A stretch of 19,231 nt of DNA from an uncultured Christensenella sp. (lineage in GTDB: Bacteria; Bacillota; Clostridia; Christensenellales; UBA1242), in NCBI GenBank assembly GCA_949291975.1, contig CASEYA010000052.1, forward strand, positions 1-19,231. The letters are read 5' to 3'. Position numbers and translations under genes: made by a program. The notes below the pieces were generated by a model, which was not told the origin of the DNA, did not search any database, and saw nothing but the letters and a program-made list of their open reading frames with translations. Below, piece after piece: positions 3,294 to 19,231 of the stretch (the first letter of the stretch is position 1; each line of letters starts with the position of its first letter).

Positions 3294-5081
3294 TTATTTT
3301 TTTATATCCATTACAATAGGAATTATGATTGGTTTTCTTTCAATTCTGCGATAGAAAAGATTTGTTAAAGTTTGTTTTATGCTGTTTTTAAGCTCGTTTT
3401 TATCTGCGCTTTGCAAATTCATTTTTGAAAGTGAATTCAAAACCACATCTTTTGCTTCGTCAAGCACCTTTTCTGCTTCGTGCGAATAGATAAAGCCCTT
3501 TGCAATCATTTCTGGTCCAGAAAGAATTTCGCCTTTTTGCAAATTTACACCAAGGACAACAACGCAGAAGCCATCATTTGCAAGTTGTTTTCTTTCTTTT
3601 AGCACATTGCTACCCGCCTGACCAATTCCCAAACCATCAACAAGTGCCTCGCCCGCCACAACATCCTGAACAAAGCGAGCATGATGCGAAGTTACTTCCA
3701 AAACAGAGCCATTGTGTGGAACAAAAATATTGCTTTCTTTCATTCCCATTTCCATTGCAAGTTTTTTGTGCGCAAGTTGATGTTTTGCTTCACCGTGAAC
3801 TGGAACAAAAAACTTTGGCTTTATGAGTTTGTGCATAATTCTGAACTCACCTTTGCAAGCGTGTCCAGATGCGTGAACACTGGCAAGGTCGTTATATACA
3901 ACAGTAATGCCCTTTTCAACCAAATCGTTTATAATTCCAGAAACTGATTTTTCATTTCCTGGAACTGGTGAGGATGAAAAGATTACCGCATCGTTTGGGG
4001 TAAGTGTCAAGCCTTGGAACTCGCCACGAGCCATTCTGGCAAGAGCGGTTGTTTCCTGACCTTGACTGCCTGTTGCCAAAACAAGTGCTTCATTGTCTTT
4101 AAGATTTTTGATTTTAGCCATATCAACAATTATGCTTTTGTCGTATGCCACCTCGCCCACCTTCATGGATATTTCCATGTTGTTAATCATGCTTCTTCCA
4201 GCAAAGGCAATTTTTCTGCCATATTGTTTTGCAAGGTTCATAATTTGTTGCATACGGTGAACATTTGAAGCGAAAACTGTTATGATTATTCTTTTATCTT
4301 TAAATTCTTCGAAAAGGTCTTTCAAAGTATCTCTAACAACTTTTTCACTTAGAGAAAAGCCCTCAAACTCGGCGTTTGTGCTTTCTCCCAAAAACATAAG
4401 AACACCTTTTTGCCCAAGTTCGCCAAAGCGTGAAAGGTCTGTTGTTTCTTCTAGCAGTGGTGTGAAATCAATCTTGAAATCTCCTGAATGCACAATAGTT
4501 CCAACTGGTGTTTTGATTGCAAGTGCGTGTGCTCCTGCAATTGAGTGATTAACATGAATAAACTCAACTTGAAAGCATCCAATTTTTACAACATCATGAG
4601 GTTTAACAACCTTGCCTGTCATTTTAACCCTTGGAAATTCACGAAGTTTTCCTTGTATCATTGCCAAAGTTAAACGACTTGCATAAACAGGCGCTTTTAC
4701 TGTGTCCAGAAAATATGGAAGACTTCCAATGTGGTCTTCGTGTGCGTGAGTTATCACAATTCCCTTGATTTTGTGCGCATTGTTTTTAAGATATGTCATG
4801 TCAGGAATCACAAGGTCAACACCCGGCATATCTTCGTCTGGAAAAGCAACCCCACAGTCTATGACCAGAATGTCATCGTTATAGCAAAGTGCAGTCATGT
4901 TCTTTCCAACTTCACCCACTCCACCAAAAAACATTATTCTAAGTTTGTTTCTTGCTCCCCTTGACTCTTGATGAAAATTGCTTTTTGCTGGTTTCTCTTT
5001 TCTTGCAAAAACTCGTTTTTTTATATTTGGTGCAATGGAGATTATTTCAGCATTTTCGTTATTAGTTGTATTATTTTCCAT
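3294..5081 (-). CDS. rnj: Ribonuclease J
   Basis: RNase J is a cytoplasmic beta-CASP metallo-beta-lactamase ribonuclease with 5'-3' exonuclease and endonuclease activity, central to mRNA decay and rRNA maturation in Bacillota. The 595-residue product has the zinc motif HAHEDH (112-117), further ligands in HVNHS (176-180) and HSGDFK (198-203), the FLGESTNAEFEG segment, the beta-CASP motif VHASGHACKGE and the conserved PVHGE. The 45-residue N-terminal extension is Asn-rich and then basic, which makes the protein slightly longer than the usual ~555. The ATG at 5081 was chosen because AAAGGAGA sits 5 bases before it; a longer frame to 5120 would cross the likely promoter. It is the first gene of the operon with trmR and trhP. 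Whether it is J1 or J2 cannot be decided here. Confidence 0.96.
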   Translation of the reverse strand: MENNTTNNENAEIISIAPNIKKRVFARKEKPAKSNFHQESRGARNKLRIMFFGGVGEVGKNMTALCYNDDILVIDCGVAFPDEDMPGVDLVIPDMTYLKNNAHKIKGIVITHAHEDHIGSLPYFLDTVKAPVYASRLTLAMIQGKLREFPRVKMTGKVVKPHDVVKIGCFQVEFIHVNHSIAGAHALAIKTPVGTIVHSGDFKIDFTPLLEETTDLSRFGELGQKGVLMFLGESTNAEFEGFSLSEKVVRDTLKDLFEEFKDKRIIITVFASNVHRMQQIMNLAKQYGRKIAFAGRSMINNMEISMKVGEVAYDKSIIVDMAKIKNLKDNEALVLATGSQGQETTALARMARGEFQGLTLTPNDAVIFSSSPVPGNEKSVSGIINDLVEKGITVVYNDLASVHASGHACKGEFRIMHKLIKPKFFVPVHGEAKHQLAHKKLAMEMGMKESNIFVPHNGSVLEVTSHHARFVQDVVAGEALVDGLGIGQAGSNVLKERKQLANDGFCVVVLGVNLQKGEILSGPEMIAKGFIYSHEAEKVLDEAKDVVLNSLSKMNLQSADKNELKNSIKQTLTNLFYRRIERKPIIIPIVMDIKK

Positions 5082-5106
5082 TTTTTCTCCTTTTAGTTTT
5101 TTCTTT

Positions 5107-5135
5107 ATTATATAAAACAATAATTTGACATCTAA
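5107..5135 (-). promoter_or_regulatory. Possible rnj promoter
   Basis: On the minus strand a perfect -10 box TATAAT (5107-5112) lies about 26 bases before the rnj start codon. The -35 region at 17 bp (TTAGAT, 5130-5135) is poor, so this is only a candidate. No strong terminator separates rnj from the membrane-protein genes upstream, so read-through is also possible. Confidence 0.35.
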
Positions 5136-7115: not shown

Positions 7116-7385
7116 TCATTTTTCTTGCAAATTATCCTGCTCACTTTCGTTTTTGGTGCTTTCTTTAATTGTCTCTTCTGTTTCTTCGCCTTTTTTTGTT
7201 GGGTCTGAAATTATGCCAAAGACCACAAAAATTCCAAGAACAGCATTTATGATGCTCATATAGACTTCTTCACTGATATCAAGTCCCAAAGGTTTGCCAA
7301 TAGCTTGAATAAGCAGAAAAAGCGCACTGGCAATTGCAAGCCAAAAACTGTATGATTTACATCTTTCTTTTAAATCAAACTTCAC
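7116..7385 (-). CDS. Phage holin, phi-LC3-like family
   Basis: Holins assemble in the cytoplasmic membrane and open holes that let the endolysin reach the wall or trigger lysis. This 89-residue protein has an amphipathic N-terminus, a hydrophobic segment SFWLAIASALFLLIQAIG (13-30), a second one AVLGIFVVFGII (48-59), and directly after it SDPTKKG. In the phi-LC3 holin family the equivalent is the GI-x-x-DPTTKG hallmark. The tail is highly charged and Glu-rich. The start is a GTG overlapping the preceding holin gene by 11 bases, with GGGGAGG about 8 bases upstream; no early in-frame ATG exists. It is the last phage gene before the terminator. Confidence 0.82.
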   Translation of the reverse strand: MKFDLKERCKSYSFWLAIASALFLLIQAIGKPLGLDISEEVYMSIINAVLGIFVVFGIISDPTKKGEETEETIKESTKNESEQDNLQEK

Positions 7386-7623
7386 TTACTTTTCCTCCCC
7401 TTTTTAAAATCATTTTTTTTATTTCAAGAACATTTCCTGACACAACTGAAAGTTGTCTGTCCACCTTTTTTATGATGGTCACATCGGTTGCAAGTTGGTT
7501 TATCAAACCAATATATTTTGTTTCACGCTTTTTACTGTCGCTGAGTTGATAGAAAAACAAAAGCACAAACAGCACAGCCCAAAGCCCGTTGCCAAGAGCA
7601 AGTTCAAGAATGTTTTCAATCAT
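7375..7623 (-). CDS. BhlA/UviB-type holin
   Basis: This 82-residue protein has one N-terminal membrane helix (GLWAVLFVLLFFYQL, 13-27) followed by a charged region with SKKRETKYIGLINQLATD. That is the layout and wording of the BhlA/UviB family (short N-terminus, GIWALLFV-like helix, then KREEKYQ-like stretch). Members act as holins or bacteriocin-release proteins. Its ATG overlaps the stop of the preceding gene as ATGA, and the next holin gene overlaps its 3' end. A holin and a second holin or antiholin regulating lysis timing would be a normal pairing, but which does what cannot be read from sequence. Confidence 0.85.
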   Translation of the reverse strand: MIENILELALGNGLWAVLFVLLFFYQLSDSKKRETKYIGLINQLATDVTIIKKVDRQLSVVSGNVLEIKKMILKRGGKVSEV

Positions 7624-8420
7624 TTGTTAATCCAAGCAACAAAGATATCATACCATCTGCCAAGTTCATCTTTTAGGCTTGGGTTGTTGTTCACAAAAGC
7701 AATTTGCTCGTCTTTTGTTTTACCCTGAAGATATCTCAGCGTCTCTGCTGTCTTTTCCCTGCCAACATCAAGCAAAATGTCTTCTATTTGTTTTTCAACG
7801 TTTTCTCTTTCACTTGCGTTTGCTTTTTCAAATTCTTTTTTTATTTTTTCAATTTCTGTTGTGAGTTTATCTGCATATGTAAGATTAAACTCTTCAAGAG
7901 CATTTTCTTTTTCTTGTTCCAAAAGAGCCTGCTGAAACGCAAGATTATCAAGATAGGCTTTGTTTTTATTTTTGAGAGCCTCTTTTTGATGATTATATTC
8001 ATTGCTAATTAAATCAAACTGATTATCATATATGCTGGAAACACGCCAACCTTTATCTATTGAGTCAAAGCGCAAATCTTGCATATCTTGGTTAAAACTA
8101 TTGGTTGCTTTCCCAAGTTGCTCATAATATTTGTTTTGGTTTGATATTCTGTTTGAATCCAACTTTTCTTGCTTGGTTTGATATTTATCATTTATTTTGT
8201 TTGTTTGTGTATCGTAATACTCACTCAAACTTTCCGATGCCTGATTTTTTGCTTCTTGGTCGGTTAATGTAAGTTCCTGCTGTTTGTTTTTCCAAGTAGA
8301 AAGTTCACTTTGATATTTATTATTTATTTGCTCAAATTTTTTGGTTAATTCACTTGGAAGAGATACATTTGCAGAAGATGTTTTAACTTTTTGTTGTTCT
8401 ATTTTTTGTGTTGTTGCCAT
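7620..8420 (-). CDS. Phage coiled-coil protein of unknown function
   Basis: The 266-residue product is very polar (Glu, Lys, Gln, Asn) and has no cysteine, signal peptide or membrane segment. Residues of about 20-100 and 125-220 are long helical stretches with coiled-coil character. A short segment around DKGWRVSSIYDNQFD interrupts them, and the last 40 residues look globular (ending DELGRWYDIFVAWINK). Similarly built proteins of unknown role occur near the tail or lysis genes of phages of low-GC bacteria. Position after the fibre and before the holins suggests a virion protein, such as a tail needle, internal ejected protein or fibre partner; this is inference. GGAGGT 6 bases before the ATG at 8420 fixes the start; a longer open frame to 8600 would overlap the fibre gene out of frame. 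An ATGA overlap couples it to the BhlA-type holin. Confidence 0.6.
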   Translation of the reverse strand: MATTQKIEQQKVKTSSANVSLPSELTKKFEQINNKYQSELSTWKNKQQELTLTDQEAKNQASESLSEYYDTQTNKINDKYQTKQEKLDSNRISNQNKYYEQLGKATNSFNQDMQDLRFDSIDKGWRVSSIYDNQFDLISNEYNHQKEALKNKNKAYLDNLAFQQALLEQEKENALEEFNLTYADKLTTEIEKIKKEFEKANASERENVEKQIEDILLDVGREKTAETLRYLQGKTKDEQIAFVNNNPSLKDELGRWYDIFVAWINK

Positions 8421-8502
8421 ATAGGCACCTCCATTTTTAAAATAATCTTCTTTGTTTTGAAGAGTGATAAAAAATTGCACAAAGTTTAAGGGCTTATATC
8501 CA

Positions 8503-10092
8503 TTATTTCTTGACATATGAGAAAACTCCGTTTGTGTTGCGCATAATAAAGCCATTGTTTGTTTCTTTGTAATACTCACCGTTAAAAACAAACACTTCAC
8601 TTGATTTTTGGTTTGTTGTTAAATTAAGTGTGGTTTTATATATTTTTCCATCACGATGATAGTAAAATCTGATTTCACCGTTATCGTAATATCCTGTGCA
8701 TGTGCCTCCAACTCCAATTTGAACAGGACTGCCCTCTGCTGTTAGATAACCAGTTGCTGAGGTTGTTTGATTGTCTTTATATGGCTGAAAAAACAGTTTG
8801 CCGTCTTTATCTTCAAAAATAACCATTATTGCATAGTTAAAAGCATTTCCATGTATGTTAGACACACCGCTTAAATTACACACATTATCGACTGTAACTG
8901 CCACTTCTGACGCAGGCGAATTGGTGGTGTCGAAACTGACATTTCCACCGATTACATAAAACACATTGTTTTTATCAAACCCGCCCATTAAAATGCCAAA
9001 GTTATTTAAAATTAAATCATTTATTCCATTTTTACCCCTTGCATTCTGATTGTAAAATTCCAAAGGACTCATAAACTTAAATTTGGGATAAGAAGACAAG
9101 TAATTTAATTTATAGGTTGTTGCTGCTGGTGCGGAAACCGCAACAACAATGCCATCATCTTGCAATTTGCAAAATGATGGATATGCCAATTTAACACCCG
9201 AACTTATAACCACCACACAAGATGATTTTATATCAATAATTTTTGTTGTGTTTGTTGAGCCAAAAACCGCTGGCGTATCTTCATCTAGACTTGTCGAGGT
9301 TGAAGAGCCATTTGCATATACCCTTGTGTGATAACCAATGCCATCACAAGAAGCAACATAGAGATTTCCTGAATAGGCATTTGAACCAGCGGGAACTTCC
9401 TCTCCTATTTCAGCATAGGCATTATCAATTATGAGTGGTTTTTGCGCCAAAAGGCAAAGTTTGATGTTTTTTATTTCACAACTTACCCCAGCACTTAAAC
9501 ACTCACCTTGCATATAGACAGATTGCGGACTTGCGGAACCAAAGAAATATATGTTATGATGCCTTTTGACTGCAATATCGCCAAAGTTTATTTCTTCGTG
9601 AAAACTTAATTCATCATTAACAAATATCTTTAAGTCACAATTTCCTGTTTGCCCAGATGTTGTGTTAGACACCTCAAAATCAATTGTAAAAACTCCCACA
9701 CAGTCGTTATCACAAGAAAATTTACCAAGGTAAGCATAGTATGTTTGTCCCGAATTAAAAAGATATAAAGAACCATAATCACGCTTTGTAAGCGCAACAC
9801 CTGATGAGTTTGACGACAACTGAGTTTGAAGTTCATCTATGTCTTGCTGAATTGTTTCAACATCTGTTTGAATTAGATTGACCTCACTTTCAATTGAGTT
9901 TACATCTGTTTGCAAAGCACCAACATTGGTTTCAAGTGTATTTAGACTGTTTTGCACTAAACTGAGATTTTGAGCTGTTGTGTTAGACTGATTTTTAACA
10001 TCCTGCAATGTTTGATTGCTGTTTTCAAAGCCTTCTTCAAATTCTAGACTCATTTTATAGGCTTGCTTGCCATATTTTTGTTCATCTTTCAT
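8503..10092 (-). CDS. Tail fibre / receptor-binding protein with N-terminal coiled coil
   Basis: The 529-residue protein begins with a short attachment region. A parallel coiled coil follows at about residues 27-94, with five regular heptads at 60-94 (LQTDVNS, IESEVNL, IQTDVET, IQQDIDE, LQTQLSS), which would trimerise the fibre. The rest is beta-rich and Ser/Thr/Asn/Gly-rich, typical of receptor-binding tips. Near the C-terminus are repeated Y/F-rich strands (GEIRFYYHRDGKIYK). It has 11 cysteines, many for a phage fibre. It follows the nozzle gene, with GGAGT about 6 bases before the start, as expected for a fibre attached to a short tail. No enzymatic domain (pectate lyase, peptidase, sialidase) is recognisable. 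Role from position and architecture; the receptor is unknown. Confidence 0.72.
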   Translation of the reverse strand: MKDEQKYGKQAYKMSLEFEEGFENSNQTLQDVKNQSNTTAQNLSLVQNSLNTLETNVGALQTDVNSIESEVNLIQTDVETIQQDIDELQTQLSSNSSGVALTKRDYGSLYLFNSGQTYYAYLGKFSCDNDCVGVFTIDFEVSNTTSGQTGNCDLKIFVNDELSFHEEINFGDIAVKRHHNIYFFGSASPQSVYMQGECLSAGVSCEIKNIKLCLLAQKPLIIDNAYAEIGEEVPAGSNAYSGNLYVASCDGIGYHTRVYANGSSTSTSLDEDTPAVFGSTNTTKIIDIKSSCVVVISSGVKLAYPSFCKLQDDGIVVAVSAPAATTYKLNYLSSYPKFKFMSPLEFYNQNARGKNGINDLILNNFGILMGGFDKNNVFYVIGGNVSFDTTNSPASEVAVTVDNVCNLSGVSNIHGNAFNYAIMVIFEDKDGKLFFQPYKDNQTTSATGYLTAEGSPVQIGVGGTCTGYYDNGEIRFYYHRDGKIYKTTLNLTTNQKSSEVFVFNGEYYKETNNGFIMRNTNGVFSYVKK

Positions 10093-10096
10093 AGTT

Positions 10097-11608
10097 TTAC
10101 TCCAAATTTACTTCCATTTGCGGATTAGATATATAAGCATCATTTTCCGTGCTATAAAAAGCAATGGCAAAAGTGTTTCCTCGCAAGTTTATTGGAACTT
10201 TTACCGCCTTGTTTGAGGCTGGCACATTAAAAATGTGAGTTTGCCCGTCAACAAAAACACCAATTTGACTGTCGTATCTGTTTAGCATTGTTATGCTTTT
10301 TATAATTTTATTTCTGCTTGGATATCCCATGTCTGTATAAGGTGATTCCCAAACCTTTTGCGTTGGAGTTCCAAAAACTTTTCCATTATATGTAAGTTCA
10401 CCAAGTCTGTTTTTATAGGTGCTACCAAAACAAGCAACCAGTTTGCTGATGTTTTTATATTGAATAGTTGTCAAAGCGCAAATGTCTACTCCTCGAAGAA
10501 TGCTGTATTCGCCTGTTTCTAGGTCTAGTTCAATTAAACAATTATTAGTCATATTTGTGGTATTATTTTCAAATCTATAATCTTTTGTGTCCATTTTGCA
10601 GGCAAGATAATACTTCCCGTCAAGAAAGGCAGCACAAGCAGACGAGTTATCCATTTCTTTGAATAAATTTTCAAAGCCAAGGGTAAGTTTGGTCATTTCA
10701 AGACCATCAAACTGATATATTCCGTCTCTGCAAAGCATTACCACAACATCGCCACACAAAACAGCGGTATTTGCAAAAATTTGCGAACTTGACAGAGCTA
10801 AATGTCTAACCACAAACTCATTTTGTTCACCAGAACCGCTTAATCGTGAAATTCCAAATTCACGGATAATATAAAGATAGTTGTTATAACTGATAACCGA
10901 GTTAAGAGTTCCTCTTTCATCGGTCATTTCGATGTATCCACCATCAAAGGCATTAACAATCCAGTTGGTTGGGTCAACATCTGAACTGAACCAAATTTGA
11001 GACTTATCTCCGCCAATGGTTGCAAACAACCTGTTTGCGTGATAAGCAAGAGAGGTTATCACTGGTGCTGATGGCCACTGCTCTGGAGAAGCAAAACTAT
11101 CCCAAGTTGTCAAACTGTCTGTTGAGTTTGTTGGGCAAAAGAAAAACTTATCCGAGCCATCTGTTCGCAAATTAATTCCAACAGGACAAGATGTAAAATG
11201 AATATTGATAAGAGAGGTAAATTCTGTGTTTGGTGACTCTACCCTTCCCCAATATATTTCATCATTGCCCTCTTCTCCACTTGCCTCACTGTAAAACAGA
11301 AGAAGTGGACTGAAAGTTTGCGACACATCTGACCAGCGTTTATAGACCCAAAATTTTTTGATGTCTGTTACATTTGTTGGAACTTCCATTGTTTTGATGT
11401 CACCATATGGGTCTGGCAAAGTTAAATCTTGAAAGCCCATGCCTGTTGTTAACGCACCTGTTGAAAAATTAAAATTATAGGTGTTTCTAGCAAGATTAAG
11501 TGGCATTACATTTGTATCAAGTTTTGTGTTCATTCCACTTGAAAAATCGGTGAGTTTAACAGTTATAACAGTTTGGTCGGAAATTGGTAAAAGGTCGCTA
11601 TAAAACAT
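10097..11608 (-). CDS. Short-tail nozzle / DNA-stabilisation-like protein (beta-propeller type)
   Basis: The 503-residue, beta-rich protein has repeated short strands of beta-propeller type. A segment at about residues 189-220 reads HANRLFATIGGDKSQIWFSSDVDPTNW. This phrase (a place name-like N-R-L-F, then 'W/YFSSxxDPxNW') recurs in podovirus proteins that close the tail tube, such as P22 gp10-like stabilisation proteins and T7 gp12-like nozzles. Further repeated units read YNNYLYIIREFGISRL, CRDGIYQFDG and LDGKYYLACK. It probably plugs the tail and keeps DNA in the head. The start at 11608 overlaps the preceding stop as TAATG and has AAGGGGGTGG upstream. An upstream extension of 28 codons overlaps the previous gene and is unlikely. 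Family by pattern, not by search. Confidence 0.7.
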   Translation of the reverse strand: MFYSDLLPISDQTVITVKLTDFSSGMNTKLDTNVMPLNLARNTYNFNFSTGALTTGMGFQDLTLPDPYGDIKTMEVPTNVTDIKKFWVYKRWSDVSQTFSPLLLFYSEASGEEGNDEIYWGRVESPNTEFTSLINIHFTSCPVGINLRTDGSDKFFFCPTNSTDSLTTWDSFASPEQWPSAPVITSLAYHANRLFATIGGDKSQIWFSSDVDPTNWIVNAFDGGYIEMTDERGTLNSVISYNNYLYIIREFGISRLSGSGEQNEFVVRHLALSSSQIFANTAVLCGDVVVMLCRDGIYQFDGLEMTKLTLGFENLFKEMDNSSACAAFLDGKYYLACKMDTKDYRFENNTTNMTNNCLIELDLETGEYSILRGVDICALTTIQYKNISKLVACFGSTYKNRLGELTYNGKVFGTPTQKVWESPYTDMGYPSRNKIIKSITMLNRYDSQIGVFVDGQTHIFNVPASNKAVKVPINLRGNTFAIAFYSTENDAYISNPQMEVNLE

Positions 11609-12183
11609 TAAAACCACCCCCTTGAAGAAATTTTTGGCATATGTTTTGGACGCTGAGCAATGAGCATTAGTCTTTGAAAACTTAAATCCCAAGCATTAGC
11701 ATCTTGATACATTCCTCTTCTTAGATAGAACTTTGAAGTTGTCCCAACAGCAAGCGTTCTGGTGCTAATTTTCCCCTCTTCTATTGGAAGATTGTCGCTA
11801 AGGGTGCTTACTTGCTGTGGAGAATATGTATATGTTATAGTGTGATTTCCATTTTTACAGCGAAAAAATGTTGGAAATGTTGTGAATTTTATGTTAACAC
11901 CATTTTCATCTTTAATTTTTATTATATCTATTAAAATTTTATCAAGTTCGTTATAATCAAAAGTTTCATTTGTAACTTTTATCTTTTCTGTTGTTTTAAA
12001 AGGCAGATAGATATATGCAATGCTAAAAATGGTATCATTTAGACAATTGATTAAATTTTCTATTGTGTCCTTTTGCTCTTCGTTTAACTCTGTTTGACTG
12101 GATGTATTAAAAGCCGAAGTGCTTAAAATATCTTCTCGGGATAAATTTTTTAAAACCAAAGTTAACACTTCTTTAACTGTCAT
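11608..12183 (-). CDS. Probable head-tail adaptor / tail-tube protein
   Basis: The 191-residue product has a helical N-terminus (1-55, VKEVLTLVLKNL and an Asn/Glu-rich helix) and a beta-rich centre (GNHTITYTYSPQQVSTLSD). A segment RTLAVGTTSKFYLRRGMYQDANAWDLSFQRLML follows, listed here as three shorter parts: RTLAVGTTSKFYL, RRGMYQDANAW and DLSFQRLML. The last part resembles the helix in which T7 gp11-like and P22 gp4-like adaptors count tail subunits. No motif is decisive; the assignment rests on size and on position between capsid and nozzle genes. AGGAGG 6-7 bases before the ATG is strong, and the gene is coupled to the nozzle gene by a 1-base stop/start overlap. Confidence 0.55.
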   Translation of the reverse strand: MTVKEVLTLVLKNLSREDILSTSAFNTSSQTELNEEQKDTIENLINCLNDTIFSIAYIYLPFKTTEKIKVTNETFDYNELDKILIDIIKIKDENGVNIKFTTFPTFFRCKNGNHTITYTYSPQQVSTLSDNLPIEEGKISTRTLAVGTTSKFYLRRGMYQDANAWDLSFQRLMLIAQRPKHMPKISSRGWF

Positions 12184-12195
12184 AGACTCCTCCTT

Positions 12196-12570
12196 TTAAG
12201 CCCATTTTGTGATATAGGCATCATTAAAGTTTTCTGCTTCTTTTTTTGATGCATAGTCAAACATCTCTTTTAATTTCCAACTGGTTTTATCGAAAAGTTC
12301 TTTTTTTGTGTCACTTTCAATCTTTTCATTGTTTTTGTCAATTTCAGCAAGAATTCTATCAAGAAATTCTCGCCTTGTTCTAAGTGTTAAAGAAATTGTT
12401 CTTGCATCAAGTGAACCATATGGAACAGATAAGCAGAAAGTGTTTTTTTGCGAATAGTTATGAATTTCATAACATTTTCGGTTTGTGTTATATACAATAA
12501 AATAATCTTTATCAATCTCTTTCAAACGCCTTGTTATGTCATGAGTATCTTCTAAAATTTTAATTAGCAT
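12196..12570 (-). CDS. Small phage protein of unknown function, connector region
   Basis: The 124-residue product starts with a beta-rich domain (TRRLKEIDKDYFIVYNTNRKC, YEIHNY, FCLSVPYGSLDAR), then has a helical charged tail (residues about 60-124). The first part, 'DITRRLKEIDKDYF-VYN--YEIH', reads like a small phage-specific domain seen in other low-GC phages after the capsid gene; I cannot name it. It may be a head-completion or connector protein. It starts after a 90-base spacer with a hairpin and a repeat, using AAAGGAA about 11 bases before the ATG. It ends 12 bases before the next gene. Confidence 0.6.
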   Translation of the reverse strand: MLIKILEDTHDITRRLKEIDKDYFIVYNTNRKCYEIHNYSQKNTFCLSVPYGSLDARTISLTLRTRREFLDRILAEIDKNNEKIESDTKKELFDKTSWKLKEMFDYASKKEAENFNDAYITKWA

Positions 12571-12660: not shown

Positions 12661-13851
12661 TTATGAAGCAGTTATTGTAAGTTTGCCTTGTGCTCCTGGT
12701 TTATCACAAACAAGTTCAGCATATTTTACAAGTGTTGCTGTGTGAATTGGATAGCCCTCTTTTTGTCTTAAAATTTGACCTTTATCATTTTCAATCCATT
12801 GCCAATCGCCAAGTTGATGCATTTTAAAGTTATCGCTGTTAAGGAAGTAAATTGTTCCATCATCAATAAAACGCTCTGCAATGAAAGGTATGCCGTTAAA
12901 TGCTATTGTTGTGTATCCACCTTCAAGTTTTGTTACATCAAGGTTAAGTCTGTTGTTTTTGAAAAGATTTTGAAAACTTCTTCTTGCGTCGTAAGAACCA
13001 CATATAAAGTTTATCTCTCCACCCGATTGCTCTTCGCAAGCGTCAATTACACTCATCAAACTTGCCTCACTGAAACTTGCATTTGCCACAGTTTGAGTGA
13101 TTGGAGTTAGAAATGGATAATCTGCTTTTGTAAGTCCATAAAGCGTTGTTATACTGGAATCAAAAATTGAACCAATTCCTGTGATTTCTTTTCCCTTGCT
13201 TCCTTGAACATAAAGTTCAACAACAGCCTTTTCCTGCTCATCATCACTTTGAGCAACCATTTCTGCTGTGCAAGCATCACTGAAAGTTATTGTTTTGCTT
13301 GCGTAGTCCCAACTTACAATTCTGGTGGTTGCCTTGTATACTCCGTCAACATAGATGTCAACAACTTGTCCAACCATAAGATTTTTCATGCTGTCAACCG
13401 TGAAGGTATAGGCACCACTTGCTGTTGCTGTTCCAGTTGCCAAAAGCCCGTTGCCGTTGCCATAGAGCATGCGAGCAAGATTAAATTTGCTTGCTTCAAC
13501 AAGCCCCTCCATTTCTGCAGACAGAAGATTTAAAAATGCGCCAGCTTCATTTGAAGATGACCTGATTGCTTTATCACTTATTTCAATTGAACCATAAAGA
13601 TTTTTAAGAGCAACCTCAAAAAGAGCGTAATTGTTTTCTGCCACATTTGGCAAAGAACCTGACTCTGTTCCAGCACCAATTCCACCATTCACACCATAAG
13701 GCACAAGTTTTTTAACCAATTTTCCAACAACATCTTGCGATGTTTTTTCTACCTTTGCTAAAAATGGATGAATGTTTGAATTAAGTTGATTTGCCACAAC
13801 ATCAAGATACATTGTTTTTAACGCTGAATTAGCCGATGTTAAAGTTACCAT
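12661..13851 (-). CDS. Major capsid protein paralogue 2
   Basis: The 396-residue protein has the look of an HK97-fold coat protein and is clearly a paralogue of the preceding gene. Shared blocks include KLVPYGVNGG, GSIEISDKAIR, GAF-x2-LL-AEMEGL, EASKFNL-RMLYG, LYVQGSK-EITG, FNGIP and ATLVKYAELVC-PGAQGK. The region at about 142-205 differs, possibly an insertion domain on the capsid surface. Both copies are intact and of equal length, so this is functional duplication, not decay. GGGGGAAATTTT precedes the ATG; the gap from the first paralogue is 18 bases. It may be a minor capsomer (vertex or hybrid lattice) or the main coat. No separate decoration or protease gene is present. The hairpin at 12606-12656 follows. 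Confidence 0.87.
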   Translation of the reverse strand: MVTLTSANSALKTMYLDVVANQLNSNIHPFLAKVEKTSQDVVGKLVKKLVPYGVNGGIGAGTESGSLPNVAENNYALFEVALKNLYGSIEISDKAIRSSSNEAGAFLNLLSAEMEGLVEASKFNLARMLYGNGNGLLATGTATASGAYTFTVDSMKNLMVGQVVDIYVDGVYKATTRIVSWDYASKTITFSDACTAEMVAQSDDEQEKAVVELYVQGSKGKEITGIGSIFDSSITTLYGLTKADYPFLTPITQTVANASFSEASLMSVIDACEEQSGGEINFICGSYDARRSFQNLFKNNRLNLDVTKLEGGYTTIAFNGIPFIAERFIDDGTIYFLNSDNFKMHQLGDWQWIENDKGQILRQKEGYPIHTATLVKYAELVCDKPGAQGKLTITAS

Positions 13852-13869
13852 ATAAAATTTCCCCCTTTA

Positions 13870-15048
13870 TTAAGAAAGACTTGCCATTTTACCTTGCGCC
13901 CCTGGTCTTGAACAAACAAGTTCGGCATATTTTACAAGCGTTGCAAGATAACTAGCATATCCCTGTTTTTGTTTTAAAATTGAACCATCTTCATTTGTAA
14001 GCCACTCCCAATCACAAAGTTGATGAGTTACAAAATCATTGGTATTAAGCATATAAAGAACTCCATTTGGAACAAATTTATCACCATAAAGCGGAATTCC
14101 ATTGAATGAAAGTGCTTTGAAGCCACCATTTAAGTTTTGTGTGTCAATATGTTTTGTCATTGCACTAAGTTTTGATGCAAAAGTGCGTTTAAGCGCATTT
14201 GTTGTTATAATGAAATTCATTTTGTTACCTGTTCGTTTTTCAACCTCGTCAAGACATTGTTGAAGTAAATCTTCGTCAAATGTTTCACTAGAACTTTTTG
14301 TCTTTATATAACTGTTAAGCCATGGATATGTCGACCTGTCTAATCCATAGATTGTTCCTGTTGTTTTAAAAATTGCTTCAAGCCCTGTGATTTCTTGGTC
14401 TTTGCTTCCTTGCACATAAAGAGTATAGGAACTTGCACTAGTTGCAAAGGTGGAATCAATTTCTTTATCAATTGTTATTTTATTGTTTACTCGGTCAACA
14501 CCTTTAATTCTTACACCACCAAAACCAGTTACCAAAGTTGAACCATTATATACATCAATCATCAGTCCTTCAATTAAATTTGTTGTTGATGTAACGGTGA
14601 TTGTCTGCGATGAAGCATCTGCAGAAGCAACAGTTGTAAGTGCCCCCGTTCCGTCACCATAAAGCATTCTGCCAAGATTGAATTTGCTTGCCTCAATTAA
14701 CCCTTCCATTTCTGCGGTAAGCAAGGAAACAAAGGCACCAGCATCATCACTTGAAGCACGAATTGCCTTGTCTGAAATTTCTATGCTTCCAAACAAATTT
14801 TTAAGAGTGCTTGTAAAAACAAGATATGGATTGCCATTGCTTGTTGGCAAAATTCCACCCTCATCACCAGCACCAACTCCACCATTTACCCCATATGGCA
14901 CAAGTTTTTGAACTTCACGACCATAGACATCACTGGTGGAACTTTTGATTTGATTGAAAAGCACATTTGTTTTTGTGTTAAGTTGATTGCTCACAACATC
15001 AAGATATAAATCTTTTAATGCATTTTGAGCAGTTGTCATTGTTACCAT
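13870..15048 (-). CDS. Major capsid protein paralogue 1
   Basis: This 392-residue coat protein follows the scaffold gene, the usual place of the major capsid gene. It shares the N-terminal arm (VT-T-A-ALK--YLDVV-NQLN), the blocks named for its paralogue and the C-terminal ATLVKYAELVC-PGAQGK. The E-loop-like N-terminal arm and C-terminal P-domain are conserved and the middle (about 140-205, with DVYNGSTLVTG) is divergent. Of two nearby ATGs, the one at 15048 is preferred: GGAGAG then lies 6 bases upstream, and the protein then aligns with the second paralogue from residue 1 (MVT). It assembles the capsid shell around the scaffold product encoded just before. Confidence 0.9.
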   Translation of the reverse strand: MVTMTTAQNALKDLYLDVVSNQLNTKTNVLFNQIKSSTSDVYGREVQKLVPYGVNGGVGAGDEGGILPTSNGNPYLVFTSTLKNLFGSIEISDKAIRASSDDAGAFVSLLTAEMEGLIEASKFNLGRMLYGDGTGALTTVASADASSQTITVTSTTNLIEGLMIDVYNGSTLVTGFGGVRIKGVDRVNNKITIDKEIDSTFATSASSYTLYVQGSKDQEITGLEAIFKTTGTIYGLDRSTYPWLNSYIKTKSSSETFDEDLLQQCLDEVEKRTGNKMNFIITTNALKRTFASKLSAMTKHIDTQNLNGGFKALSFNGIPLYGDKFVPNGVLYMLNTNDFVTHQLCDWEWLTNEDGSILKQKQGYASYLATLVKYAELVCSRPGAQGKMASLS

Positions 15049-15059
15049 AAACATCTCTC

Positions 15060-15753: not shown

Positions 15754-15790
15754 TTTTTTTGCGTTTTTTGTGTTAATTTTCTTAATTTTT
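15754..15790. repeat. T-tract spacer after the portal gene, shared with 17738-17752
   Basis: TTTTTTGCGTTTTTT (15755-15769) is identical to 17738-17752 on the other side of the portal gene. Runs of T begin at about 15754, 15764, 15777 and 15786, close to one per helical turn, a pattern that bends DNA. Confidence 0.45.
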
Positions 15791-17687
15791 ATTGATTTTG
15801 TGTTTCATAAAGCATGTTTGCCTGTTGTTCTAGCGCTTTAAACTGTTTGTGTTTTCTTATGTGTTCAAGCATGATTTTTTCAATATCTTTGTTCTTTTCT
15901 TTTAGATTTTCCCACTCACCACCAAGCATAAAATTGGTGTGAGTGCTTATATGTAAGTCATGGTCATGAACCTCCAAAACCTCTGGCTGTTTTCCCCTTG
16001 TTGCAAGGTCAATGTTTTCCTTTCGTGCATTTTGAATTTGCAGAGTGTTTGAATCAAGAGTATCTTCCCAAACACCAAAGCCAAGCATCTCTAGAATTTT
16101 ATGACGCATACTGTTTGATAATTTTCCGTTTTCATCATGCAAAAGCCCCTCTTTCAAAATATCCAAAATCATGGAACGCTTTTGCGCAACTGTTTGAGTA
16201 TATTCATTCTCTGTATCAAAAGAAATATCATCTGAACTGATGTTTCCCCTGTCCCAATAGAAGAAGTTTGTTGTTCCATTTATTCCAACCACTCGGCTCA
16301 TTCTTTGATGTGTTACAAACTGCTTATACAGTCTTAAAATTTGTTGAGCAACTTGTTTAATGGCAAAACTTATGTTTTCTCCACTTGCAGAAATTCTTGC
16401 ATTTTCTTGCTCAATTAAAAGTTGTAACGCAACTCCACTTAGGTTTGTAAGTTCTGCTGTGTTCGTTCCAAAAAGGTCACTGATTCCACTGACACTTAAA
16501 AATTCATTAAGAAGTTTTTCCTCCTCTTCGCTAAAACTTACGGGAATACTTTCTGCACCCATAAGCGTTGGCATGTTTGAACCTTGACGATAAACCAAAA
16601 CTTTTCCCGGACTCATACCCTCTTCTTCAAGATTGTCAATATCAATTGAGCCATCTTCAACAGCCAAAACACCAACCGTTGACCTGTTCATAAATTCATG
16701 CTTTCTGTTTTTTACTGCGTTATAGGCACGCTGAATTGGAATTGTTCTTTCAATTACACTACCACCCCAGAAAAGTGATGGCTGTTCAACTGAAATTTGC
16801 CTTATAAATGGAAAACCTCTTTCTCCGTCTTTTAAGTTTTTATATGGTAAATCTCCATTGAACACAAGCTTATCTTCTACCACAACAATAAGCCGTCCAT
16901 TTGGAAATTCTTTTGAAGGCATTTCATATTTTTCCAAAACAACCGCTTGATTGTGTTTTGATGTTTTTGAAACCTTGTTAAAACCCCCAAGGGTGATTGC
17001 ATTGTTGTGAACGCTTGAAAGAGCATAACTGTCTATGTCCTGCCCTTCCACTTTAACTCCCCAAAGTTGTTCAATCACATTGACATCATAACATCGTGCA
17101 TGAATTAAACTTTGGCAGTGGTTAAGGTCTGAACAGGAGTTGCTGTCTGGATAGATTTCAAAGGGCGAGCAAACCAAAACATCAACATCACCTTCATAGA
17201 TGTTTTCACCCATTGGAGAAAGTCCAACAATTGAGCCTGCGCTATCATTCCAAACAACTTTATAAAAAGCTGTTCCACAAATTTCACTCCACCTTGTCGC
17301 TTGTGAAACAAGCCGACTGAAATCAAGTTTGTTGCTCACAGATTTTAAAATATCTTTGCATACTTTTGCATTGCTGATATCATCCTCATCATCACTTGCT
17401 GGAAGAACAGTCATAGAAGGTCTTACATTAGCAAGTTTTGCAACCCTTGTTTCTATAAGTGGAGCAATGTGATTATAAACAGCACGCTCTTCCCAATAAA
17501 ACTGTTTATCAATTTCTCTTAAAATATTGTTTGAATTTATGTCGCAAAATTGATTTCCTATTAAAAAATTGATGTTAAGTTGCCATTGTGTTTCAAAAGG
17601 CTTGCGCTCTTCTTGTCTTCTTTTAAAATCTTTCCAAACGGCAGATACTATTTCCTTTTGTTGTTTTTTTGTTAATTTTTGTTCCAT
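15789..17687 (-). CDS. Portal protein
   Basis: The portal is the dodecameric ring at the capsid vertex through which TerL pumps DNA and to which the tail attaches. At 632 residues it is in the range of portals of short-tailed phages. The N-terminal region (MEQKLTKKQQK, ERKPFETQWQLNINFLIGNQF) is typical of P22-like portals. Other landmarks are YNHIAPLIETRVAKLANVRP, the SEICGTAFYKVVWN strand, IQRAYNAVKNRKHEFMNRS, and LTNLSGVALQLLIEQ, which precedes the tunnel-forming helices. The C-terminal 100 residues are helical and polar. It starts with AAAGGGGTT before the ATG and follows an 84-base spacer with phased T-tracts. Next to TerL and scaffold, the assignment is secure. Confidence 0.92.
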   Translation of the reverse strand: MEQKLTKKQQKEIVSAVWKDFKRRQEERKPFETQWQLNINFLIGNQFCDINSNNILREIDKQFYWEERAVYNHIAPLIETRVAKLANVRPSMTVLPASDDEDDISNAKVCKDILKSVSNKLDFSRLVSQATRWSEICGTAFYKVVWNDSAGSIVGLSPMGENIYEGDVDVLVCSPFEIYPDSNSCSDLNHCQSLIHARCYDVNVIEQLWGVKVEGQDIDSYALSSVHNNAITLGGFNKVSKTSKHNQAVVLEKYEMPSKEFPNGRLIVVVEDKLVFNGDLPYKNLKDGERGFPFIRQISVEQPSLFWGGSVIERTIPIQRAYNAVKNRKHEFMNRSTVGVLAVEDGSIDIDNLEEEGMSPGKVLVYRQGSNMPTLMGAESIPVSFSEEEEKLLNEFLSVSGISDLFGTNTAELTNLSGVALQLLIEQENARISASGENISFAIKQVAQQILRLYKQFVTHQRMSRVVGINGTTNFFYWDRGNISSDDISFDTENEYTQTVAQKRSMILDILKEGLLHDENGKLSNSMRHKILEMLGFGVWEDTLDSNTLQIQNARKENIDLATRGKQPEVLEVHDHDLHISTHTNFMLGGEWENLKEKNKDIEKIMLEHIRKHKQFKALEQQANMLYETQNQ

Positions 17688-17771: not shown

Positions 17772-18053
17772 TTATGAATTTTTAAGTTCTTTTAAAAGTC
17801 TTTGTTTTTCCTGTAAAAGTTCTTTTTCTGTCATGTTGTCATATTTTGATTTGATATCTTCTTTGAAAAGTTCAAAATATGCACGAACGGCAGACACATC
17901 TGGCGGTGAATGTTTTTTGTTTACCTTTTGTTTACATCTTTTCATTTCGCCAGTTTCATCATCAAAACAAAACTCTTCTGTTACTTCATCAAAATCATAA
18001 CCTGTTGCTTTTTTCATCAGCGCAGATGCCAACTTATCTTTATCTTCATTCAT
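17772..18053 (-). CDS. TerS-like phage protein
   Basis: The 93-residue product contains ATGYDFDEVTEE (16-27) and KHSPPDVSAVRAYFEL (47-62). This pair resembles the C-terminal half of many small terminase subunits, where GY-x-Y/F-x-EVT and PPD-x2-A-x2-FWL occur. The N-terminal helix-turn-helix of such proteins is missing; residues 65-93 are a charged helix. It may be a short TerS, a detached TerS C-terminal domain, or another packaging regulator. It starts within the stop of TerL (ATGA overlap), so the two are translated together. TerS normally precedes TerL; the order here is reversed and a conventional TerS may exist upstream, outside the window. Confidence 0.55.
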   Translation of the reverse strand: MNEDKDKLASALMKKATGYDFDEVTEEFCFDDETGEMKRCKQKVNKKHSPPDVSAVRAYFELFKEDIKSKYDNMTEKELLQEKQRLLKELKNS

Positions 18054-19231
18054 AATTTTCTTTTACCCCTTGCCTTTTGTATCAGTCTATCTTTATGCAA
18101 TGTTATTTCGCTTTTAGTGTCAAATTGTTTGGTCGGCTCAGGTTTGGTCATTATGTAATATCTAAGTTCATCAAGTGCGTGGTCATCTTTTTTGATTGGT
18201 GTGTCTGCATTACCCCAAAAATATCCTTTTATCTCACGAATTAAATTTGTGCAGGTTGAAAAGATTTTTAACCTTGCTTCTCCTTTGATGTTTTTAAGAT
18301 AACTTTTTACCCGTGAAATTCCAGCAAATAAATCTTTATTAACTTTGGTATTCACATTGATTTTATTATCATAGAAAAGTTCAGCAACACTTTTTTCACT
18401 TGCAAGAGTTTTTTGATTTGCAGCAGAATCAATTAGCGCATCAATAAAACCATTTCTTTGCTTCCAACCAAGTTTGATGCATTTTTCTCTTATTTTATCT
18501 GCATGCCATTCCACAGTCTTATTTGAAAAATAATGTTCAGCAATGACATAGATATTTCCATCATAATCCACAGCATACCAATGAGCAGATAAAGGATTGT
18601 GAAGCCCTGGGTCAATGGATATTGTATCAAACCAGTCTTTCGGCACATCAAAAGGCTCAATTACATGAACAAGAGGGTCAAATTCGCTGTAAACCATTCC
18701 ACCATTGGACAAGAACTTTCCATATCTTCTGCTTTCTAGCTCATCTTTTGATAAAATACTGGACATAAATTCAATCTCTTCTTCATCTAAATACGGGTTG
18801 TCTGCCCACTCCATTTGAATTGTCCAAATCTCTTTATCGTTGGCAGGATTAAGATAAATTGTGTTATACACCCATGAAAGTCCTTTCAGCGGAGTCATGG
18901 TTGCAAAAATTTGACCTTTGCGGTCTAGAACCCTCATTCTGCATTCGAGATAAATATCATACGGGGGTTCTTCGTCAAACCAAACAAAATCAAGACTTGT
19001 TCCTTGAAATTTTTCTCTTCCTTGGTCACAACTTTTAAAGCCAATTCGGCTGTAACTGCCAAAAACATTTTTGATAACAATATAGTCAATAACTCCATTT
19101 TCTGGCACATCCTTTCTGCCTGAAAGCATAACAACATCAACAATCCACTCTGGCTTTAAATATTGCAAAATTTTTTGCTGTGCAACATCCCTTTGAACTT
19201 GAGAACTTAGCGACACCACCCACCCCTCCAC
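18050..19231 (-). CDS. Terminase large subunit TerL, 5'-partial
   Basis: TerL is the ATP-driven motor and nuclease that packages DNA through the portal. This 393-residue portion lacks the N-terminal Walker A region, which lies beyond the window edge; the frame is open there and the first codon (GTG) is not a real start. Present are the Walker B FVWFDEE (82-88), the coupling motif TMTPLKG (111-117), and the RNase-H-type nuclease: Asp207 in SIDPG, Asp268 in ALIDSA and Asp354 in HALDELRYY. The motifs are intact, suggesting a working motor. It lies directly upstream of portal genes as in most tailed phages and overlaps the TerS-like gene. Whether packaging is pac- or cos-type cannot be told. Confidence 0.95.
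   Translation of the reverse strand: MEGWVVSLSSQVQRDVAQQKILQYLKPEWIVDVVMLSGRKDVPENGVIDYIVIKNVFGSYSRIGFKSCDQGREKFQGTSLDFVWFDEEPPYDIYLECRMRVLDRKGQIFATMTPLKGLSWVYNTIYLNPANDKEIWTIQMEWADNPYLDEEEIEFMSSILSKDELESRRYGKFLSNGGMVYSEFDPLVHVIEPFDVPKDWFDTISIDPGLHNPLSAHWYAVDYDGNIYVIAEHYFSNKTVEWHADKIREKCIKLGWKQRNGFIDALIDSAANQKTLASEKSVAELFYDNKINVNTKVNKDLFAGISRVKSYLKNIKGEARLKIFSTCTNLIREIKGYFWGNADTPIKKDDHALDELRYYIMTKPEPTKQFDTKSEITLHKDRLIQKARGKRKL

Follow-up and report, generated by a model that had tools for sequence, protein, structure and literature searches.

The closest known system to the locus described here is FpGTA, a gene transfer agent (GTA) of Faecalibacterium for which particles of ~40 nm carrying ~9 kb of DNA have been shown (PMC12946183). 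As described in the available text of that report, FpGTA combines a podovirus-type operon, encoding the small and large terminase subunits (TerS and TerL), portal, scaffold and major capsid protein (MCP), with a second locus holding tail and lysis genes. Here, we describe a module with these same kinds of head and packaging genes in a 19,231-nucleotide stretch of DNA (the window; contig CASEYA010000052.1 of assembly GCA_949291975.1) from an uncultured Christensenella sp. of the order Christensenellales (GTDB family UBA1242), in which the MCP gene occurs as an adjacent pair. Both systems belong to gut Clostridia, although they are likened by description and not by sequence, FpGTA belongs to another order, and one MCP accession is named for it in the available text. 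The present module is instead found across its order, follows the host tree and carries tandem MCP genes in four genera. The same report also records GTA-type packaging events in Christensenellaceae genera (3/25) from gut virome data, with the locus not stated in the available text (PMC12946183); our module is a candidate for this packaging.

Viriform GTAs of Rhodobacterales, Bartonella and Brachyspira, to the extent that they are covered in the available text (PMC9662315), are likewise derived from Caudoviricetes and vertically inherited, with dispersed loci in some. However, they belong to other phyla and their particles are established, whereas the module described here has podovirus-type genes and its particles are predicted. 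Among isolated phages, the nearest are Arthrobacter phage Jasmine, Microbacterium phage Shocker and Cellulosimicrobium phage DS1, whose 45-47 kb records each contain one MCP match (25-30% identical) and a related portal (22-25% identical). In the open-licence PubMed Central literature, no title or abstract among the matches listed concerned this module or a tandem MCP in a GTA.

The two MCP genes of the window (copy B, and copy A downstream of it; Table 1) are both intact, neighbouring and co-directional. The first-pass annotation of this DNA had described them as adjacent, intact, alignable end to end and roughly half identical by eye, and BLASTP bears this out; the end-to-end alignment has 180/396 identical residues (45%) and 66% positive ones (E 9e-116), by which the likeness of A and B is far above chance expectation. 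Both copies exceed the curated cut-off of 80 bits for the NCBIfam family NF033394 (capsid_maj_Podo), which by profile makes them podovirus-type MCPs, and the PHROG family that they match (14242) is annotated as 'major head protein'. Copy B would be 394 rather than 392 amino acids (aa) long if started at an in-frame ATG at 15054. The 18-base gap reported between the genes is also found as annotated. A GGAGG or GGGGG site precedes the second MCP copy in 12 of 15 tandem loci; in 3 of the 15 an upstream start was taken for the open reading frame (ORF), so the intergenic gap gives no reading there. Across the four tandem genera (g1, g203, g211 and g220), mean A-B identity over every A and B row is 48% in residues 1-40, 70% in 81-120, 27% in 161-200, 23% in 241-280 and 59% in 361-392. 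The termini, which had been called strictly conserved around a diverged middle, are thus indeed more alike, but only moderately conserved.

To see how widespread the MCP is, we searched the host family with copy B and found a relative in 289/309 genomes, covering 42/42 genera and 182 of the 190 high-quality genomes. Exactly one match was present in 254 of the 289 MCP-positive genomes, and a search with copy A gave identical tallies. As a yardstick, the widespread phage capsid family PF05065 was found in 3/98 family genomes (2 above its cut-off). In the order, 80 of 151 sampled genomes, from 18 families, have the MCP, with one match in 75/80; in the wider class, it occurs in 20/291 genomes. Outside the four tandem genera, 14 further family genomes have at least two MCP matches. 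The best match scores well below full length in 9 of these, as expected if one gene had been cut in two, and is full-length in the other 5 (G369, G374, G414, G468 and G542). Onthoplasma, whose genomes are reduced, has been placed under UBA1242 (PMC12306168, as far as its available text goes).

Two further observations concern more distant MCPs. Elsewhere in the class, five genomes of genus g61 (family f47) have MCP relatives that are 32-42% identical over full-length matches; the portal and neighbours at locus L202 are partly alike, and this may be a second fixed module (loci L201 and L202). The single-contig 2.4 Mb genome G620 (family f107) has two MCP genes 1.2 Mb apart (L242 and L249), 48% and 39% identical to copy B, the second of which may be prophage-borne.

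Gene order in the 54 family loci (53 regions and the window) is conserved from TerS or portal onward, and families f3, f82, f86, f94, f95 and f104 clearly share it. In most of the family genera read, a sigma-like regulator, an oppositely oriented SH3-domain gene and TerL come ahead of this conserved block. In 19/81 loci, from 12 family genera and families f95 and f100, the host gene for RNase J follows the MCP at a downstream distance of 6.7-10.3 kb. The genus of the window has the module in one contiguous piece. We also looked for TerL in 20 MCP-positive genomes, mostly picked because their MCP region lacked it; TerL was present in 20/20, and in 14 of them it was on a different contig or ~10-125 kb away from the MCP. 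Thirteen of these 14 belong to genera g2, g195, g216 and g192, where TerL (L206-L223) is separate from TerS and the head genes, and the 14th is G504 (g207), with TerL ~10 kb off. Where the two terminase subunits lie at different chromosomal places, spread as one phage genome is unlikely. Regulator, SH3 gene and TerL stand together in 14 of the 16 TerL loci read; in the other two, the regulator was not seen within the 4.2 kb examined.

Several genes recur around TerL and TerS. The SH3_3-domain gene (L071:1334-2122, with homologues in L083, L085 and L111) sits in the opposite orientation between regulator and TerL in several families, and it accompanies TerL where the module is split. Upstream of the module, several genera have genes that by eye resemble the sporulation genes SpoIIGA and SigE (L085 1-2179, L106 1-2010). 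In g194, g207 and g208, a gene for a large protein of ~750-1100 aa with a signal-like start separates TerL from TerS (L160, L161, L183, L184 and L185), and the same gene (cluster c21) adjoins a TerL fragment in g181 (L151). Between TerS and portal, many loci from several families carry a gene for a small cysteine-rich protein, zinc-ribbon-like by eye (L085:7354-7578, cluster c11), which is not seen in the window. ORFs were picked mechanically, and in some genomes of the order antisense frames were chosen.

The module genes also agree with the host phylogeny. Compared with an rpoB tree (G707, for which a wrong ORF had been picked, left out), the MCP shares 36/55 splits (58 genomes), the portal 38/55 (58 genomes) and the 531-aa protein of Table 1 33/53 (56 genomes); with shuffled labels, 0.2-0.3 splits were shared on average and at most 5. 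Near-ubiquity, conserved gene order, agreement with rpoB and split loci together point to a domesticated, vertically inherited module. The first-pass annotation had placed the capsid genes in a short-tailed phage or prophage of the isolate; the podovirus-type affinity stands, but a phage or prophage is not supported, given an MCP that is near-universal in the family, in conserved order, tracking the host tree and in places split from TerL. For the pair G000-G535, the closest within g1, Nei-Gojobori ratios of non-synonymous to synonymous substitution (dN/dS) are 0.035 for copy B, 0.050 for copy A, 0.037 for the portal, 0.039 for TerL and 0.026 for host RNase J; in most more distant pairs, synonymous sites are near or at saturation. 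By these ratios A, B, portal and TerL are under purifying selection, which bears out the earlier claim that both MCP copies are under selection. The 191-aa and 531-aa proteins (and the scaffold) are mostly more diverged in g1 pairs than MCP, portal and TerL.

Tandem MCPs occur in 15/16 loci of g1, g203, g211 and g220 and in 0/65 other loci; the exceptional 16th locus starts at a contig edge. In 15/15 tandem loci, the copies are co-oriented and adjacent. An assembly duplication, the artefact that the first-pass annotation had named as a possible refutation, is ruled out by the 45% identity and by the same pair in other metagenome-assembled genomes, including G535, where the copies are 97% and 96% identical to those of the window. 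In the rpoB tree, the tandem genera form one clade, (g220,(g1,(g203,g211))), with single-copy g182 as its sister. We built an MCP tree of 88 rows, excluding ORFs of at most 250 aa, G655, G690, five class-level loci and the second locus of G620. G487 has a single copy, which lies right at the start of its contig and had been labelled A before tree building from its adjacency to the 124-aa protein gene. For g1, g203 and g211, the tree groups the A copies in one clade (100/100) and the B copies in another (99/87), with identical genus order in both; within g1 the A and B branching is the same, and within g211 one shallow fork differs. Copy B is nearer than A to the single-copy MCPs. These mirrored clades indicate that the duplication predates g1, g203 and g211 and that both copies have been inherited since, so the phylogeny proposed as a check of its age returns an old event. 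Recent gene conversion between A and B is ruled out by the mirrored trees.

We also compared what each copy has kept of the single-copy MCPs, leaving out the g220 rows. Q293 (B numbering), conserved in single-copy MCPs, is kept in 14/15 A and 0/14 B, while Q265 is kept in 0/15 A and 14/14 B, and E162 in 0/15 A and 13/14 B; R188, also conserved in single-copy MCPs, is lost in 15/15 A. In residues 81-100, A keeps 94% of the single-copy-conserved positions. Under an earlier and different criterion, only 3 sites had a different residue fixed in each copy, at a 75% threshold for both A and B. Mean pairwise distances show A diverging ~2x faster than B in g211 (1.34 vs 0.61), and the two diverging equally fast in g1 and g203. 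Reciprocal loss of ancestral residues is the pattern that a split of roles would give. In phage T4, gp24 builds the pentamers and gp23 the hexamers, and these too are two paralogous shell proteins, gp24 probably being a duplicate of gp23; as given in the available text, however, they are only ~20% identical (PMC9958956), compared to 45% for the tandem pair in this vertically inherited module. For SU10, the N-arm, extended loop and annular loop are where subunits of pentamers differ from those of hexamers (PMC9509320, available text). Profile comparison with the SU10 MCP covered just 22 columns at a probability of 1.7, and the mapping failed. A PDB profile search with the MCP gave no match at E 0.1; at E 10, the better of two matches was the putative MCP 7f38 (E 0.26, residues 278-340), which we did not use as evidence. 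Taking A and B together, a two-protein shell with a different place for each is most likely, and is our best guess. Of the arrangements that the first-pass annotation had suggested, a mosaic shell, a vertex-specific protein or a choice of surface loops may each apply.

On balance, we think it probable that the module is a domesticated, vertically inherited podovirus packaging module, most likely a GTA, and that A and B co-assemble in one shell at different positions. In such particles, terminase and portal would fill a small capsid with fragments of host DNA, the short tail would consist of adaptor and nozzle, and the holins would assist release. A single MCP gene would have been duplicated in tandem in the ancestor of the four genera and both copies retained, and A and B would co-assemble on one scaffold into a single shell, occupying distinct capsomer positions or contacts as T4 gp23 and gp24 do. 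Particle production, DNA packaging, transfer, co-assembly and the placement of A and B are what we infer from these genes. GTAs have structural and packaging genes derived from Caudoviricetes, as seen here in TerL, the TerS candidate, portal, MCP and holins, and they are transmitted vertically, as the 289/309 family genomes, conserved order and neighbours, and rpoB agreement indicate. Because the phage origin and vertical inheritance by which GTAs are described (PMC9662315) both apply, we call the module GTA-like and most likely a GTA, though not a proven one. As in T4, two shell paralogues are kept together under selection.

Several points weigh against this interpretation. Particles, packaged DNA and transfer have not been seen for these hosts, and we recognised no endolysin gene in the locus. 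Loss of the module can occur, since 20/309 family genomes are without the MCP, and of the nine of these that were tested, TerL was also gone in five (and retained in four). The module has also moved at times, as its neighbours in several genera are not RNase J. With regard to the packaging recorded in Christensenellaceae, G072 and G148, both single-contig genomes from family f2 of this order, have no MCP. Agreement with rpoB is lower for TerL, at 14/37 splits, in a comparison of just the 40 genomes with TerL inside the MCP region. MCP-tree distances correlate only weakly with those of TerL and the 531-aa protein at r 0.21 and 0.22, and 11 and 8 of 500 permutations, respectively, were as high. 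Both MCPs of the sole g220 genome fall outside the A and B clades in the best tree; forcing all A or all B copies together is not rejected (approximately unbiased test, p 0.392 and 0.358), so a single duplication is the simplest history, not the sole possible one. Finally, the residue contrasts were chosen after looking, and the related rows represent few independent events.

Could the module instead be the resident prophage of a highly host-specific temperate podovirus, with the tandem MCP as a phage trait? The recognised structural genes are phage-type, the Arthrobacter, Microbacterium and Cellulosimicrobium phages have related MCPs and portals, and a strictly host-bound phage could track the host tree. 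Still, active prophages are sporadic and form a contiguous unit with integration and replication genes, whereas this MCP is near-universal (289/309, vs 3/98 for PF05065) and mostly single-copy, gene order and neighbours are conserved across families, TerL is detached from the head genes in four genera, and the scanned window ORFs include no recognisable integrase, repressor or replication gene. Nine of the 11 loci from the viral collection are this module, on contigs no longer than 13.6 kb, and we consider a prophage highly improbable. These nine are IMG/VR contigs (L001-L009) listed as viruses, two of which (L005 and L006) have the tandem MCP; that pieces of the module are filed as viruses matters for virome annotation. 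When scanned with copy A, the viral collection yielded one weak relative (28%). A domesticated particle could also serve another use, either as a killing particle like PBSX, which packages DNA without injecting it and acts as a tailocin (PMC12946183, available text), or as a DNA-filled particle that does not transfer. The greater divergence of the 191-aa and 531-aa proteins (and scaffold) in g1 pairs is what target recognition might give. Purifying selection on terminase, portal and MCP, however, suggests that packaging matters, and the scanned ORFs include no recognisable contractile-tail gene, so we regard such a use as unlikely, if worth serious attention.

Two further alternatives leave the domesticated module in place and concern the roles of A and B. 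The copies may be alternatives, A and B each forming a separate shell that differs, say, in size or stability, with no mixed shell formed. Each gene has its own ribosome-binding site, and the faster divergence of A in g211 could be read in this way; equal rates in g1 and g203 do not fit it, nor do copies that stay co-oriented and adjacent in all 15 tandem loci, with one scaffold, one portal and one TerL gene in the window for both. Separate shells seem to us rather improbable. Alternatively, copy A may no longer be a shell protein and may serve in a non-capsid role, for instance as an internal or decoration protein, given that E162, R188 and Q265 are lost in all 15 A rows. Yet A scores 230 bits against NF033394, keeps most of the conserved positions at residues 81-100 and has a dN/dS of 0.050, all of which make this role very unlikely. 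A single shell built from both A and B, within a domesticated module, remains our preferred interpretation.

Table 1. Features of the packaging module and its surroundings in the window.
Feature	Position	Strand	Evidence
Terminase large subunit (TerL), cut by window end	18050..19231	minus	Pfam Terminase_6N + Terminase_6C
Terminase small subunit (TerS) candidate, 93 aa	17772..18053	minus	PHROG 309 E 3e-6
Portal protein, P22 type	15789..17687	minus	Pfam P22_portal E 6.3e-19; PHROG 156 E 1.1e-37
Putative scaffolding protein, 221 aa	15060..15725	minus	Named by position; in 53/54 family loci
MCP copy B, 392 aa	13870..15048	minus	NF033394 242.5 bits; PHROG 14242 E 1.4e-59
18-base gap with ribosome-binding site (AAAGGGGGAAA) serving copy A	13852..13869	minus	Read from sequence
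MCP copy A, downstream copy, 396 aa	12661..13851	minus	NF033394 230.1 bits; PHROG 14242 E 1.2e-53
Conserved 124-aa protein	12196..12570	minus	In 50/54 family loci
191-aa protein, putative head-tail adaptor by position	11608..12183	minus	In 53/54 family loci
531-aa virion structural protein, candidate short-tail hub or nozzle	10097..11692	minus	PHROG 3287 E 1.2e-7; in 53/54 family loci
529-aa protein, N-terminal coiled coil, candidate fibre or receptor-binding protein	8503..10092	minus	Coiled-coil type matches at ~residues 13-108
326-aa protein, DUF7934-type by its L083 homologue	7620..8600	minus	Pfam DUF7934 E 1.3e-22 for L083 homologue
BhlA-type holin	7375..7623	minus	Pfam Holin_BhlA E 1.3e-12
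Phage holin	7116..7385	minus	Pfam Phage_holin_1 E 5.6e-12
Host RNase J	3294..5120	minus	TIGR00649 546 bits (cut-off 400)

The module in the window reads TerL, TerS candidate, portal, scaffold, B, A, 124-aa, 191-aa, 531-aa, coiled-coil and DUF7934-type proteins, and two holins. TerL keeps conserved motifs in an alignment of 54 longer relatives, which we take to be those of its ATPase and nuclease. Phage family scans gave no match for the putative scaffold, family scans gave no clear match for the 191-aa protein, and the 531-aa protein had zero matches among 50,697 phage records at E 0.01. The cluster of the 529-aa coiled-coil protein is present in only 3/74 loci. The scanned ORFs also include no recognisable prohead protease. 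Beyond the holins lie two membrane-protein-like ORFs without a family, followed by RNase J, a methyltransferase and a U32-type protein, with a nucleotidyltransferase-like gene on the opposite strand.

A broader claim, which we hold only tentatively, is that this is an ancient podovirus-type GTA of the whole Christensenellales, whose coat gene was duplicated after domestication and whose copies then split jobs, perhaps between hexamers and pentamers or in size control. If true, a bacterium would be building its own two-protein delivery shell under host-level selection, and the duplication would offer a replicated case of capsid evolution shaped by such selection and not by phage spread. Much of a gut-bacterial order, including genomes of ~1 Mb, would have kept phage packaging machinery from a time before its families diverged. 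Lineages expected to shed such costly genes would thus have retained a standing route of gene exchange.

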